DNA of 64,000 bases from Roseobacter sp. GAI101. Lineage in GTDB: Bacteria > Pseudomonadota > Alphaproteobacteria > Rhodobacterales > Rhodobacteraceae. The notes under the pieces were generated by a model that saw only the letters and a list, made by a program, of their open reading frames with translations, was not told the origin of the DNA and searched no databases. Position 1 is the first letter of the stretch. Each line of letters opens with the position of its first letter. Made by a program: the position numbers and the translations under genes. Where the stretch lies: positions 2,390,747 to 2,454,746 of the forward strand of contig NZ_DS999213.1 in assembly GCF_000156335.1 (NCBI RefSeq). Direction: 5' to 3'. Below, in pieces: positions 18,454 to 24,960 of the stretch.

Positions 18454-19344
18454 TCAACGCCGGATCGCCAGACGTGCGGCCAGCCAACTGACAAGCATAA
18501 AGCCGAAATCCACAGGCAACCAGGCACGCAACGCCTCGGTATCCTCCATCGAGAAGGGGACCAGATACAGCGCAAGGCCGGACAGGTCATCGGGCATCGA
18601 GGCGATCAGGATCGCGGTCACGTTATTGCAGAAATGCACCGCAATCGCAGGCCCCAGCGACCCCGAGCGCGCGGTAAGATCGGCCATCAGCATGCCGAAG
18701 ACGCCGGCCCAAAGTGCGATCAAGATGGCGTTTTCCCCGGCCTGATCCGGCAGATAATGCCCAAGCGCGAACAGGACCGATGGCAGCACCATCCAGATCA
18801 GCGGCGAATTGAACCGCGCCGCCAACTGCTGCTGGACATAGCCGCGAAAAACAATTTCCTCGGCGCTGACCTGGAGAAGCACGAAGATCAACGAAAAAGG
18901 CAGCAAAAGCACCCATTTGCCAATCGCCATGTTGGACACGAAAGGCGCACCCAAATTCCACGGCGGCAACAGGAGGGTCACAGCGCCAATCACCACCAAA
19001 ATCCGCACAACAGCGAAAAATTGCGGGACCGCAAGGCTGATCGGCCCGATCAACCCCCATACGGACCGCCGGTGGATCACCCGCGTCACGACGGCAACAC
19101 CAACGATCATCAAGCCGAAGCTGCCCAACAGGAAAAACATCGCGACCGGCGTTCGGCCCGTCAGCAGGTCGTCGTAAAAGTTGCCGTAGTCCGGTCCCAG
19201 AACGTTGAACAATGTGTTGAAAAACAGATTGTTGAGCAGCAGATAGATGGCCGATGCCGCAAGAAAGCCGACAATCAGCTTCCAGATCGCGGCAGACGCG
19301 ACCGCCGGGGCGAAAAAGGCCTTGTGGGCTGCGTATCTGTTCAT
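18454..19344 (-). CDS. CPBP family intramembrane glutamic endopeptidase
   Basis: This 296-residue polytopic membrane protein has about eight hydrophobic segments. The CPBP (Abi, type II CAAX protease) motifs are complete. Motif 1 is SAEEIVFRGYVQ, with the catalytic Glu pair and Arg (about residue 163). Motif 2 is FALGHYLPD and motif 3 is AVHFCNN. Family members cleave transmembrane substrates, process prenylated proteins or give bacteriocin immunity. Its start overlaps the stop of the large ABC-like gene by ATGA, so the two proteins are made together. The substrate is unknown; the coupled partner is an obvious candidate. Confidence 0.88.
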   Translation of the reverse strand: MNRYAAHKAFFAPAVASAAIWKLIVGFLAASAIYLLLNNLFFNTLFNVLGPDYGNFYDDLLTGRTPVAMFFLLGSFGLMIVGVAVVTRVIHRRSVWGLIGPISLAVPQFFAVVRILVVIGAVTLLLPPWNLGAPFVSNMAIGKWVLLLPFSLIFVLLQVSAEEIVFRGYVQQQLAARFNSPLIWMVLPSVLFALGHYLPDQAGENAILIALWAGVFGMLMADLTARSGSLGPAIAVHFCNNVTAILIASMPDDLSGLALYLVPFSMEDTEALRAWLPVDFGFMLVSWLAARLAIRR

Positions 19345-22300
19345 GGCTGGCCGTCCTGTGTGGGAGGTGTCCGCTTTGCATCGTCGCGCGGGATATGGAT
19401 ACCTGCGGTGCGCAAAAGCTCTGCAGTCCCCGTCAGGTGACCGGACACGGTGCGCAGCAAGCTCAGCAGGATGACGGGATCATTTTCGATCACCGACCGG
19501 AACTGATCCGCACCGATCCGCAAGAACTGGCTGTCTTCGGTCGCGCTGAAATCAAGCTGGCGGGGTTCGCTCATGATGACGGCAAGATCGCCAATCAGGC
19601 GGCCTGCCTCTACGGTCGAAATATGCAGTTTGGTGCCGTCGGGTTCCGTCCAGTACAATTCACCCATACCGGAAAGGCACAGGTAAACCGCGTCCGCAGG
19701 TTGCCCCGTCGAGAAAATCCTTTCGCCTTTCTTGACCGGAAACCACTGTGCCGCAAAGGCCAGCAAGCGCTGGTTGCGCGGATCAAGGTTGCTGAACATG
19801 GAATTGCCGGCGATGATCCGCAGCTTGCGACGCAGATCGTCGGAAATGCTGTCGTCCTGATTTGGCGTTTCGCTTTGCGCCACCCCGTCAACACGCCCGC
19901 CCCGTATCTTGACAAAGATGTCAAAGTCTTCCGGATGGGAAAAATGGTCATCCAGATAAACCTGCGTCATCTCGGGCAGCAAATTCCCCAAACGGTCGCG
20001 CAGCCGCCTGAAGCCCTCGGCATCCTGCCCGGCAAGCGATTGGTTGAACACCAGGATATCAGGGCGTTTTATCGCAGCCCGGCTGAACGAGGCGCGTTCC
20101 TGGAACGACTGCGAAATATTCGAGCCTCCAATGCTGGTCGGGACATCAAACACCGTGACGGCAACCGCTTTTTGCAGGTCATGCGCCTTGAAGATTTCCA
20201 ACACCAGATCCAGCACCAGATCAGCCTGCAAACCTGCCACGGCAGAAATGCGGCCATACAGGACATTTTCCAGAATTGTCAGACGGGGCAGATAGTTCTC
20301 CGGGCTGATCGGCACGAAAAGATCCTTTGCCTTTTCACGCATGGCAGCGCCCTGATGTTTGCGGATCGCCAGGATCTCCTGCTTGAAGGTCTCGGGGAAG
20401 CCCGGGCCGATTTGTTCGGCGGTAAAGGCAAAGGGCACCGTAAGCAGCAACGAAAACTCGTCCTCGGTCAGCGCGGCATCACCTTTGTTGCGGCGGCGCA
20501 TGGCGATATCGACCAACTGCTCGTAAAGCTCTTCGTCGATCCCCAAGGCGGTGAACAAGGGGTGATCGGTGCCATCCCTGCCAAAGGTCTGGTGCAAGGT
20601 TTCGACCAGTGTCTGTGAAATCGCGACGCCCTGTTCCGCAAGGCCCTGTTCGATGATCATCGCAAGAAACCCTCGCTCCGAGGCCAGCCCGGCCTGCGAA
20701 ATGTTGCGCAAGGGGGCCGCGAACATCAGGTTGCCGCCCAAGGCCAGCGCGGGGTTGAACTTGTCGGGATCAAAGCGGTGCACCACCTTGTCCAGGCCCT
20801 TTTCCTTTAGTTTCTCATAGACCTCCTCGCGCAGCCCCACGATTGCGGCGGCCAGCTTGGGGCGGCTTTCCGGGTCGATGCGATCGGTGACCATCCGCTG
20901 GAACATCACGTCCTCACCGTCCACCGACTTCACCAGCTGGTACCACCAGTCGTTGACATCCTCGAGCGTATCAAGCCCGGCTAGTCCAGGGTCCAGCCAA
21001 TCCGCTTTGGTACTGTCAAGGCTGTTGCCGGCGCGGGCGGCTTCGATGGCCGACATGTCCCGCTGCTTTGGATCCCACAGCACGGTCTTGGGGCTGGTAC
21101 GCAAGGACATCAGCAAGTTATCCCCGATCGTGCCCTTGAACAGATAGGGATGACTGTGCGCATAGCCGATCCTTGCGGCCAGTACGGCCTGATGCAGCCC
21201 CGCCAAATCATATCCCGCCATCGTGATATGCCCGCGGGTCGGAGACACCTCCCGCGTTAAAAGCTCGGCGATCGCGGTGCGTTCCGTCTGGTTGGGTATT
21301 TCGATGGCCACACGCGCACCCATCGGTATTTCAATGTTCAGATCGTCCAGAATTCTGGTGCCGTCATGGTTGCGCAACGTGACATTCTGAAAACTGATTG
21401 GCCCCTTAAGGTGCGGGATTTCATCAGGCTCGCCCTCGAACAGCTTGGCATCGATCATGCCGCGCGGCGCAAAGCGTTCGGTGACCACGTCCCACCGCAG
21501 CGACATGTCCTGTGTCTGGTTGTAATAGGTCAGCAGTTCTTTCCACGGATTGGACAGGTCCTTGTAGGCGGCAAGGGCCGCGACCAGCGCGCCGACCGTG
21601 ATCTGCCCCTTGATCGCAAGATACCCCCCGACCGAATAGAAAAAGAACGGGGTGAGCTGGGTGATGAAGTTATTGAGAAACTTCATGAAAAATTTCTTTT
21701 GGTAGATTTCGAACCGGATTTCGAAAAGGCGGCCCAGCCGGTCCGTGAACGCCGCCAACCGGTACCGCCACCCGCCATTCGCCCGCAAATCCGAAATTCC
21801 GGCAGCGGTTTCGCCGATTTCCGACGAGAACGAGCGCACCTGGATGATCCGCTTTTTGTTCAGCACGTTTATCTGCCGCTGCAACATCGGGATCAGATAG
21901 GCCTGCAGCGGAATAAGCGCCACGCCCGCCAGCCCGAACCAGGGCGATTGTATGAACAAGAACAGCAAGATGATCAGCATCTGCCCGGCCTGGAACACCG
22001 GCTGTGCGACGGCATCCCCCATCAGACCGCCCATCGGTTCTGCCTCGGAGGTCACCATCGACACAAGTTCACCCTGACTGGTGTTCTCGAAATAGCTGCG
22101 CGGAAACCGCATCATCCGCGCAACAAGCTGGTAGCGGAAGCGGCGCAGCAGACGTTCGGACAGGACACCTTTCATCGTGTTCAGCCTCATCTTCATCAGG
22201 CCATGCACCAACACCGCGCCCAGATAGCCGAAACACAGCAGCATCAGGAATTGCACCTGGGTAACCTGCACGCCGAACAGATCAAGCACCTCGACGTCGG

Positions 22301-22451
22301 ACCCGATGGCATCGTTGATGATCCGCTTGGGCAGTTCGAGCGTGACGTATAAAATCGGGAAAGTGACGGCCGTGAGAACCAGCAAGATCAGCTGTTCCCG
22401 GCGGGAATATTTCCAGATGAAGGAAAAAATGGATCGCTCCATGCGGGACAC
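19341..22451 (-). CDS. ABC exporter-like protein with degenerate ATPase, large insertion and cNMP-binding domain
   Basis: This is a 1036-residue protein. Residues 20-310 are an ABC type-1 exporter membrane domain with about six helices. The nucleotide-binding domain starts near residue 350 (PISFQNVTLR), but the ATPase motifs are lost. Walker A reads EIPNQTERT (384-392) with no G-K-S/T, and the Q-loop is AHSHP (431-435). The signature is SNISQSFQ (777-784) and Walker B is DILVFNQ (798-804) with Asn-Gln for Asp-Glu. About 260 mainly helical residues (451-712) are inserted before the signature. Residues 885-1000 form a cyclic-nucleotide-binding domain with a phosphate-binding cassette, IGDLAVIMSEPRQ, keeping the Arg. 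It cannot hydrolyse ATP by the usual mechanism and is likely a sensor, scaffold or regulated channel. It is coupled to the CPBP protease downstream. Confidence 0.85.
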   Translation of the reverse strand: MSRMERSIFSFIWKYSRREQLILLVLTAVTFPILYVTLELPKRIINDAIGSDVEVLDLFGVQVTQVQFLMLLCFGYLGAVLVHGLMKMRLNTMKGVLSERLLRRFRYQLVARMMRFPRSYFENTSQGELVSMVTSEAEPMGGLMGDAVAQPVFQAGQMLIILLFLFIQSPWFGLAGVALIPLQAYLIPMLQRQINVLNKKRIIQVRSFSSEIGETAAGISDLRANGGWRYRLAAFTDRLGRLFEIRFEIYQKKFFMKFLNNFITQLTPFFFYSVGGYLAIKGQITVGALVAALAAYKDLSNPWKELLTYYNQTQDMSLRWDVVTERFAPRGMIDAKLFEGEPDEIPHLKGPISFQNVTLRNHDGTRILDDLNIEIPMGARVAIEIPNQTERTAIAELLTREVSPTRGHITMAGYDLAGLHQAVLAARIGYAHSHPYLFKGTIGDNLLMSLRTSPKTVLWDPKQRDMSAIEAARAGNSLDSTKADWLDPGLAGLDTLEDVNDWWYQLVKSVDGEDVMFQRMVTDRIDPESRPKLAAAIVGLREEVYEKLKEKGLDKVVHRFDPDKFNPALALGGNLMFAAPLRNISQAGLASERGFLAMIIEQGLAEQGVAISQTLVETLHQTFGRDGTDHPLFTALGIDEELYEQLVDIAMRRRNKGDAALTEDEFSLLLTVPFAFTAEQIGPGFPETFKQEILAIRKHQGAAMREKAKDLFVPISPENYLPRLTILENVLYGRISAVAGLQADLVLDLVLEIFKAHDLQKAVAVTVFDVPTSIGGSNISQSFQERASFSRAAIKRPDILVFNQSLAGQDAEGFRRLRDRLGNLLPEMTQVYLDDHFSHPEDFDIFVKIRGGRVDGVAQSETPNQDDSISDDLRRKLRIIAGNSMFSNLDPRNQRLLAFAAQWFPVKKGERIFSTGQPADAVYLCLSGMGELYWTEPDGTKLHISTVEAGRLIGDLAVIMSEPRQLDFSATEDSQFLRIGADQFRSVIENDPVILLSLLRTVSGHLTGTAELLRTAGIHIPRDDAKRTPPTQDGQP

Positions 22452-22593: not shown

Positions 22594-24960
22594 ATGTCCA
22601 CCAACACCCGTTTCGATAAATCCAAACTGCCCAGCCGGCATGTTACCGAAGGACCGGAGCGCGCGCCGCACCGGTCCTATTATTACGCCATGGGCATGAC
22701 GGAAGAAGAAATCCACCAGCCTCTGGTCGGTGTCGCCACCTGCTGGAACGAAGCCGCCCCCTGCAACATTTCCCTAAACCGCCAGGCCCAAGCCGTGAAA
22801 GCCGGCGTGAGGACACAGCAAGGCACACCGCGCGAATTCACCACCATCACCGTGACCGACGGCATCGCCATGGGCCACGAGGGCATGCGCTCTTCCCTTG
22901 CTTCGCGCGAAGCCATCGCTGACACGGTCGAATTGACCATGCGCGGCCACTGCTATGACGCGATCGTCGGCCTTGCGGGCTGTGACAAATCCCTTCCCGG
23001 CATGATGATGGCGATGATCCGTCTGAACGTGCCGTCCGTGTTCCTCTATGGCGGGTCGATCCTGCCGGGCAAGGCCCCTGCCGGTGCCGATGTTCCCGCC
23101 GATTTCGCCAGCCGCGATCTGACCGTGCAAGACATGTTCGAAGCCGTTGGCAACTTTCAGAACGGCACGATGTCCGCAGCCGCGCTTGAAATCCTCGAGC
23201 GTGTGGCCTGCCCGAGTGCAGGTGCTTGCGGCGGCCAGTTCACCGCCAACACCATGGCCTGTGTATCCGAAGCGATCGGTCTGGCGCTGATGAATTCCTC
23301 TGGCATGCCAGCGCCTTACGAATCGCGCGATGCCTATGCAGAGGCGTCCGGCGAAGCGGTCATGAACCTGATCGAGAAAAACATCCGCGCCCGTGACATC
23401 TGCACCCGCGAGGCGTTCGAGAACGCGGCGCGCATCGTCGCGTGCACCGGCGGATCGACCAACGCCGGTCTGCACCTGCCGGCGATGGCACACGAGGCGG
23501 GCATCGATTTCTTCCTTGATGACGTTTGCGAAATCTTCCGCGACACGCCGTATTTTGTCGATATGAAGCCCGGCGGCTCGCATGTCGCGAAAGACCTTTA
23601 TGACGCAGGCGGCGTGCCCGTCGTGATGAAGGAACTGCGCAAGGCTGGTTTGCTTCACACCGATTGCATCACCGCGTCAGGCCGTTCCATCGGCGAAGAA
23701 CTGGACATGATCGAACGCGAAGCGGACGGCAAGGTCATCCACCCAATCAGCACCCCGATCAGCAAGACCGGCGGTGTCGTGGGCCTGAAAGGCAACCTTG
23801 CCCCCGAAGGTGCCATCGTGAAAATCGCCGGCATGTCCGAGGAAGACATCGTCTTTACCGGTCCTGCGCTGATCTTTGAATGCGAACAGGACGCGTTCGA
23901 GGCCGTGCAAAATCGCGCCTATAAAGAGGGTGACGTTTTCGTCATCCGCAACGAAGGCCCCGCAGGCGGTCCCGGCATGCGCGAAATGCTGGCGACCACC
24001 GCAGCCCTGTCCGGTCAGGGCATGGGCAAAAAGGTCGCCCTGATCACCGATGGACGTTTTTCGGGTGCGACCCGCGGCTTCTGCGTGGGTCACGTCGGCC
24101 CCGAAGCAGCCCATGGCGGCCCGATCGCCCTGCTGAAAGAGGGTGACATGATCACCCTGAACGCCATCGAAGGCACGATCAGTGTCGATGTCAGCGATGC
24201 CGAAATGGCCGAACGCAAGGCGGCATGGCCCGGCGCACGCAAGACCAATTACCAAAGCGGCGCGCTTTGGAAATACGCTCAATTGGTCGGCCCAACCTAT
24301 CTGGGGGCCGTAACCCATCCCGGTGCCAAGCCGAAACCCATGACTACATGGACCTTTAAGGGTCCGTTAGCTGCCCTTGCGCTGCTCACCCTGATCGGCT
24401 GCGAAGCCGGTCAGGGGGCGAAACTGGCACCCGGCGCGTCTTCGGGGGCCGGCCAGCAGGCAGCACGTCCACTGTCACGTACGCAAATGGCGGGCGGCGT
24501 CGTTCTGGTCGCACCTTCCGGATTTTGCATCGACCGGACCAGCCTTGAACCGCGGTTTGCCGTGATGGCCCGCTGCGACGGGTTGGGTGTCGCCCCGACT
24601 GGCGGCGGTGCCGCCCCGCGTGGCCTGATCACCGTCAGCCTCACCAAACGCAAGGCAGGATCACTGCCAACGGCAGCGCAGATCGCCACGGCATCCCAAT
24701 TGGCAGTCGTGGATACTGTTGAAGAAAGCCAGGATCAGGTAACATTCCGCGCGCAAGGGCGTATTCCGGTAAGCGGTCTGTCCGCGACACAATGGCGTGG
24801 GGTCGCACATATCGGCGGCCAGACGGCGGGCATCGCGGTCTACGGCCCCGAACGGTCAGAGATCGTCACAAAGATCGGTCGCGCGATCATGCACCAAATG
24901 ATCAACCGCAGCATCGAGGCGACCCCAAAACCTGTGCAAACACCGGCAAAACGGAATTGA
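22594..24960 (+). CDS. ilvD: Dihydroxy-acid dehydratase IlvD, reading through into a lipoprotein sequence
   Basis: Residues 1-582 are a complete IlvD, the Fe-S dehydratase that makes 2-keto acids for valine, isoleucine and leucine synthesis. They contain [24 protein letters not shown] and [17 protein letters not shown], supplying cluster cysteines. [25 protein letters not shown] and the terminal [14 protein letters not shown] follow. IlvD normally ends a few residues later, but no stop occurs here. At codon 583 an ATG continues into about 205 residues starting with a lipoprotein signal. A TGA lies one base on (24341-24343) in another frame, so a one-base indel probably fused two overlapping genes. 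The ATG start at 22594 follows AGGGAGGC. Confidence 0.9.
24340..24960 (+). CDS. Probable separate lipoprotein currently fused to IlvD
   Basis: From the internal ATG at 24340 the frame encodes 206 residues. They begin with a lysine-containing n-region, the hydrophobic stretch [13 protein letters not shown] and then Cys, a good lipobox (L-I-G-C). The mature part has [18 protein letters not shown] and ARCDGLG (two cysteines that could pair) and a helical tail. I do not recognise a function. A lipoprotein signal in the middle of a cytosolic enzyme makes no topological sense, so independent translation is more likely. No clear ribosome site precedes this ATG, so translation may depend on coupling to ilvD. 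Confidence 0.55.

Follow-up and report, generated by a model that had tools for sequence, protein, structure and literature searches.

An ABC exporter-fold protein with degenerate nucleotide motifs and a C-terminal cNMP-binding domain in Roseobacter sp. GAI101

The window gene, its product and its nucleotide motifs

The 64,000-nucleotide stretch of Roseobacter sp. GAI101 DNA analyzed here (contig NZ_DS999213.1, positions 2,390,747 to 2,454,746; referred to as the window) encodes, on the minus strand, where all features of this gene lie, a protein whose architecture was confirmed as an MsbA-like membrane domain, an ATP-binding cassette (ABC) ATPase fold without catalytic residues, and a C-terminal cyclic nucleotide monophosphate (cNMP)-binding domain. 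The open reading frame (ORF) runs from a GTG codon at position 22451 to position 19341 and comprises 1036 codons, as in the original prediction, whose frame is indeed open and to which the strand, not given there, can now be added. The start codon conserved among relatives corresponds to an ATG at 22442, which would yield a product of 1033 amino acids (19341..22442); because Met is kept at this position in 91 of 103 sequences of the clade to which the window protein belongs (the window's clade), this ATG is favored as the likely start, the GTG at 22451 being the alternative. Residue numbers refer to the 1036-residue ORF.

The exporter transmembrane domain (TMD), occupying residues 4 to 330 (21462..22442), is retained, as had been predicted: Pfam ABC_membrane (PF00664) matches residues 43 to 294 above its cut-off (E 9.2e-22), and the six-helix exporter domain is present. 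The N-terminal part of the nucleotide-binding domain (NBD), residues 345 to 455 (21087..21419), is recognized through a structure match and through an ABC_tran (PF00005) match over residues 368 to 464 which, at 21.7 bits, falls below the 25-bit Pfam cut-off, while the cNMP-binding domain, residues 906 to 991 (19479..19736), is matched by PF00027 with an E value of 1.1e-15 (57.8 bits versus a cut-off of 27.5). The top NCBIfam match is MsbA, with 130 bits against a cut-off of 602. Pfam revealed no other ATPase domain, which disposes of the concern that one had been missed, and the C39 family is absent among the three Pfam hits to the protein (E up to 1). The predicted structure (mean predicted local distance difference test score, 75.6; predicted template modeling score, 0.61) matches exporters across approximately residues 1 to 854, with a Z score of 24.1 for the PCAT1 core. 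Since the isolated ComA NBD (3vx4) also matches the model (Z 23.2; root mean square deviation, 2.3 Å; 221 residues aligned over residues 343 to 854), the NBD fold is predicted to be intact. These structure matches leave other families possible, and the insert described below and the cNMP domain were modeled within the full-length protein.

The reference for the nucleotide motifs was a set of four canonical exporters from this genome, which align in register and all possess the counted residues. Against these, the Walker A motif, VAIEIPNQTERTAI (residues 381 to 394; 21270..21311), has Glu-Arg in place of Gly-Lys, i.e., Arg for the Lys; the Q-loop Gln at position 433 is Ser (21153..21155); the signature reads ISQSF for LSGGQ (residues 779 to 783; 20103..20117); Walker B Asp-Glu is replaced by Asn-Gln (residues 803 and 804; 20040..20045); and Asp occupies the switch-His position 835 (19947..19949). 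The degradation of Walker A, Q-loop, signature and Walker B reported in the original prediction is thereby borne out, and the protein falls outside the definition of a type I ABC exporter that rests on these motifs and the switch His. In ABC proteins, the two halves are arranged head to tail, so that each ATP site is built from the P-loop in one and the signature in the other. Since both of these elements are broken in the window protein, no partner could restore a canonical ATP site with it. The paralogue encoded in the same genome (locus L002) is degenerate too, and a partner-restored consensus composite site is therefore not formed by this pair.

The region between Q-loop and signature, which the original prediction had not mentioned, is enlarged by an insert (residues 456 to 716; 20304..21086) within the NBD helical region, where canonical exporters have 22 residues; the median length between positions 456 and 717 is 262 in the window's clade and 269 in the other group. 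Two repeat units, B inside the insert (residues ~560 to 613; 20613..20774) and C (residues ~712 to 770; 20142..20318), the latter running into the signature region, have in common an FDxxxYNxxATxxENLLFG-like sequence, with hhalign probabilities of 97.8 to 98.9% (97.8% for B against C). The post-Q-loop segment, unit A (residues 430 to 456; 21084..21164), matches units B and C more weakly (65 to 86% over ~20 columns; 84 to 86% for unit C). Across the 75 comparison windows, with the hits just given among them, the median probability was 0.5, and a reversed profile gave 0.8. We read the insert as holding extra copies of ABC helical-subdomain sequence, although the repeat units leave about half of it or more unexplained. 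It is also the least constrained part of the gene (pooled ratio of nonsynonymous [dN] to synonymous [dS] substitution rates, 0.35).

Motif loss, fusion and selection across the family

Motif counts were based on 209 distinct sequences remaining after the removal of near-identical rows, comprising 102 from the window's clade (window protein included) and 107 others, one of which, L205, lacks an NBD. The full catalytic set (K, S/T, Q, S, G, D, E and H combined) occurs in none of the 209, compared with all four canonical exporters, so the degeneracy of the window protein is no chance observation. In the window's clade, Walker A Lys391, Q-loop Gln433, catalytic Glu804 and switch His835 are absent from all 102 sequences, one of which has Asp at position 804; the degenerate state is thus conserved in homologues, as the original prediction required. 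The Asn-Gln pair at Walker B is, as judged from the alignment, a state of the window protein and not of its clade, because the Walker B Asp persists in 67 of the 102; 81 sequences retain the D-loop Asp.

The 107 sequences outside the window's clade retain more of the site: the P-loop Lys is kept in 62, the catalytic Glu in 53, the His in 32 and the Walker B Asp in 19, and the signature Gln and the D-loop Asp in 94 each. At residue 392, where canonical exporters have a Ser/Thr that serves as a Mg2+ ligand, 83 of the 107 have Glu or Asp. Because Mg2+-coordinating and signature residues are already missing from these relatives, 62 of which still hold the P-loop Lys, the alignment indicates that ATPase loss in the family is stepwise, with no single order, and the concerted loss of all nucleotide motifs that had been proposed does not hold. 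Four relatives outside the clade combine the Walker A Lys, the S/T, and the Walker B Asp and Glu, so that homologues with intact Walker motifs, which were to count against the original prediction, exist in this limited sense, although none has the full canonical set.

Such partial retention would fit a scheme in which ATP or another nucleotide binds non-canonically, perhaps free of Mg, and closes the NBDs without fast hydrolysis, perhaps more so in the unfused relatives. The residues kept outside the clade favor it, as do the four relatives just described and, within the window's clade, the Ser/Thr at position 392 in 50 of 102 sequences and the persisting Walker B Asp. The P-loop Lys is, however, wholly absent from that clade, where Gly390 is replaced in all 102 sequences, in 89 of them by Glu or Asp, and we regard the scheme as improbable.

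The degenerate motifs could also be those of an ordinary decaying pseudogene, but this explanation is barely credible. Long open frames are found in more than 100 relatives, and a new residue pair, Glu-Arg or Asp-Arg, recurs where Walker A normally has Gly-Lys (89 of the 102 sequences of the window's clade). In six close pairs of relatives (dN 0.010 to 0.041), whole-gene dN/dS is 0.026 to 0.080 and that of the NBD parts 0.009 to 0.136; the family gene is under purifying selection in these close relatives. Over all 20 pairs chosen greedily, many of which have dN > 0.1 and dS < 1, the median dN/dS is 0.26. The higher ratios of the distant pairs probably stem from saturation in high-GC sequence, and the close pairs were relied on because the distant ones were taken as saturated. 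Of the original argument for a new function rather than decay, the loss of ATPase activity, as judged by sequence, and the purifying selection in relatives therefore stand, without the concertedness.

Fusion accounts for the gain of the cNMP domain. Most relatives elsewhere in the Alphaproteobacteria are unfused, with a separate gene for a small cNMP protein beside the transporter gene (84 of 101 unfused loci), and the fused proteins constitute one clade (Shimodaira-Hasegawa-like approximate likelihood ratio test [SH-aLRT] support, 99), so that the gain which had been predicted corresponds to one change of state on a tree that was built by a quick method, was rooted with canonical exporters and drew a program warning of long branches at the root. 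The phosphate-binding Arg964 (19560..19562), the key residue of the cassette in the original prediction, is retained and is invariant in the window's clade (103 of 103 sequences). The separate cNMP proteins mostly display a GE..R(T/S) pocket pattern (75 of 84). In the window's clade, the phosphate-binding cassette has Asp for Glu in 90 of 103 sequences, and the Thr/Ser after the Arg is mostly gone.

Distribution, paralogues and gene neighborhoods

Counting the window's own genome in each sample, family matches were found in 55 of 58 genomes of the same genus (E <= 1e-60), 18 of 100 of the same taxonomic family (E <= 1e-40) and 96 of 289 of the same class (E <= 1e-30), where at least G802 in the genus sample and G004 in the family sample were counted through membrane-domain-only proteins. 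A search of 398 genomes from the phylum with an unfused member gave matches in 28 (E <= 1e-50); 27 of these belong to the same class, and the remaining one matched through a membrane-domain-only protein. The nearest named relatives of the window protein are from Sulfitobacter and Roseobacter records; five family loci in Moritella, Chromatiales and Granulosicoccus records suggest transfer.

L002, the second family member in the window genome, is 38% identical to the window protein and clusters with sequences designated type B (SH-aLRT 97), the window gene being type A. An obligate A-B heterodimer acting as one unit would agree with this grouping, with the presence of B in 13 of 13 family-sample genomes possessing A (the window's own included) and with the genus sample, in which, with types A, B and C assigned by identity bands, 30 of the 32 genomes harboring B also harbor A, the remaining two harboring C. 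In the same sample, 18 of 48 A genomes lack B, so that A does not need B, and we consider such a unit quite improbable. Twelve B-type or allied paralogues (including L027:1507, L030:1501 and L035:1507) have an Ile codon at the conserved start (ATA in eight, ATC in four), which may represent use of a rare start codon; in L028 and L029, the frame opens just 6 to 7 codons upstream, and no start codon of a usual kind lies between. L002 itself has ATG at this position.

A further branch consists of proteins of 381 to 472 amino acids without an NBD, 40 to 43% identical to the TMD, which nests inside the family in the quick tree, its long stem making the placement unsure. Examples are L274:4989-6386, L275:4812-6209, L279:4922-6226 and L280:5170-6471; several such genes adjoin genes for a predicted multicopper oxidase and small secreted proteins, which together resemble a copper-related cluster, the gene names being assigned by sequence reading rather than family search.

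Neighborhoods were compared for 20 loci outside the window's clade, 16 unfused and 4 fused, with flanks of ~6 kb and with neighbor domain names taken from one locus, L148; at one unfused locus, L158, gene calling failed to pick up the ABC gene. Genes of GT28-like and/or GT4 glycosyltransferase type lie near 13 of the 16 unfused loci, around which histidine phosphatase and small methyltransferase genes also recur. On pRL11 of Rhizobium johnstonii, one strand carries an adenylate/guanylate cyclase gene, a four-gene ABC importer, three glycosyltransferase genes, the ABC protein gene (the unfused homologue L208:10085-13369) and the cNMP protein gene, perhaps constituting a polysaccharide system. 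The arrangement on pSymB of Sinorhizobium meliloti is similar, with an additional polysaccharide lyase gene. In Azospirillum, a fused homologue also adjoins a four-gene-type ABC importer set.

Cyclase genes lie near the family members of R. johnstonii and S. meliloti and near L002. The window genome yielded only two class III cyclase matches; the stronger one, an adenylate/guanylate cyclase gene (L166:10395-11246, minus strand), is located ~1.4 kb from L002 on the opposite strand with one gene between. A tblastn search with this cyclase, among the loci then compared, found matches at L166, L002, L025, L032, L126, L151 and L142 only, of which L166 and L002 represent the same place, as do L126 and L151.

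A CPBP protease gene follows the family gene in 60 of 75 loci tested (L038 to L117 with a distinct family row, leaving out L091, L094, L099, L102 and L111, whose rows were partial or identical); the 15 others comprise 12 loci that we read as C-type, two A-type loci and one with too little flank. As the protease is equally common in genomes without an A gene (57 of the 58 genomes sampled from the genus, among them all ten that lack A, and 69 of 100 family genomes, only 18 of which contain a match to the window protein), it was rejected as an operon partner, and its adjacency was attributed to shared synteny. On the plus strand of the window, the ilvD ORF (22594-24960) continues in frame into an apparent lipoprotein gene, giving 788 amino acids instead of ~600; by appearance, this stretch is two genes in relatives.

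Proposed function and relation to known systems

The window protein probably works as a signal-gated membrane protein and not as a pump. Tentatively, and at somewhat less than an even chance, we propose that it is a pseudo-ATPase with an exporter fold that acts as a nucleotide-gated, hydrolysis-free facilitator or flippase, ligand binding at the C-terminal domain having replaced ATP hydrolysis in the control of the membrane domain. In this mechanism, the cNMP domain would bind a nucleotide and shift the NBD scaffold; the dead NBD, enlarged by helical-subdomain copies, would keep its fold and D-loop and would most likely couple the sensor to the intracellular loops of the membrane domain, which would thus be gated and switch between inward and outward states, passing cargo down a gradient. 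For the ancestral cargo, an envelope glycan or glycolipid is a candidate, given that glycosyltransferase genes adjoin most unfused relatives with flanks. A related account, in which the family lost hydrolysis stepwise, enlarged its NBD by helical-subdomain copies and became a cyclic-nucleotide-gated facilitator or channel, with a related branch lacking the NBD, is possible but on the doubtful side. Ligand, gating, transport and cargo are what we infer for the window protein.

Several observations weigh against this proposal. The altered pocket of the window's clade implies a ligand that is perhaps no cyclic nucleotide; it could be another nucleotide, as with the HetC domain described below. 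The six close pairs exclude the window gene, which differs from its nearest relative by dN 0.14 and dS 1.54, near saturation, so the constraint which answers the earlier question of relaxed selection applies to its relatives. None of the four fused loci outside the window's clade read with flanks has glycosyltransferase neighbors, and the window gene is flanked by ilvD, CPBP protease, accD and folC genes; a glycan cargo was accordingly rejected for the fused proteins, the cargo suggestion resting on unfused relatives only. Cyclase linkage, patchy and rare beyond a few loci, was likewise rejected as a general rule and is suggestive only.

A non-transporting receptor, moreover, would leave an identical sequence record. 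In this alternative, a membrane receptor or SUR-like regulatory subunit would use the ABC scaffold to sense a membrane or periplasmic ligand together with a cytosolic nucleotide. It accommodates the loss of catalytic motifs alongside the cNMP fusion, and it agrees with the finding that no partner for transport or biosynthesis recurs next to the fused genes. The TMD, the most conserved part of the protein in the window's clade (mean frequency of the commonest residue, 0.82), is compatible with a ligand pocket, and SUR2A is the highest-Z structural match of the model, though tied with exporters. A conserved partner to regulate was, however, not found either, given the equal frequency of the CPBP protease in genomes without a window-type gene, and the unfused relatives resemble glycan-cluster transporters (the 13 of 16 loci above); on balance, we judge a receptor role rather unlikely.

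In the literature searched, beyond whose reach most subscription papers fell, no paper on the present family was found. The locus tags SMb20810-15 and pRL110053-57 are those which, on position, we tentatively presume to correspond to the S. meliloti and R. johnstonii loci. In the respective sources, SMb20813 is called an msbA homologue (PMC10945364), pRL110056 is listed with O-antigen enzymes needed for root colonization (PMC11103875), and nothing suggests importance of SMb20811 (PMC6180224), none of these tags being tied to the present family.

With MsbA/TM287-288/PCAT1-type exporters (ABCB-like, type I), the window protein has the membrane domain and NBD fold in common, but it lacks intact catalytic motifs and carries the ~262-residue NBD insert and the C-terminal cNMP domain. 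CFTR and SUR1/2 likewise use the ABC fold as a channel or regulator, as proposed here, but they still bind ATP and are not known to carry a cNMP domain. The heterodimeric exporters TAP, TM287/288 and TmrAB (PMC7756269), with one degenerate site each, resemble the present family in that this site is kept under selection, but their other site is consensus; in the present family, A and B alike have a broken P-loop and a broken signature, which rules out a consensus state for either A-B composite site. The same source reports a TAP D-loop mutant acting as a nucleotide-gated facilitator, which provides a precedent for an exporter working in this manner. HetC of Nostoc is, like the window protein, an ABC exporter with a cNMP-type domain, which binds ppGpp according to PMC10986499; that source places the domain at the N terminus and describes a C39 peptidase and an essential ATPase catalytic residue. 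The window protein differs in its C-terminal cNMP domain, its dead ATPase motifs and the lack of C39 among its Pfam hits.

ABC proteins are defined by ATP hydrolysis, and public records annotate some family members as ATP-binding proteins, a function which their residues do not support. The partly degenerate unfused, dead sensor-fused and NBD-free members, found largely within a single bacterial class, form a natural series which allows study of the change from exporter to gate or receptor and of the role of the NBD when the use of ATP is impossible. If the more doubtful account of a cyclic-nucleotide-gated facilitator or channel is true, the family would represent an ABC fold that a second messenger gates in place of its being powered by ATP.

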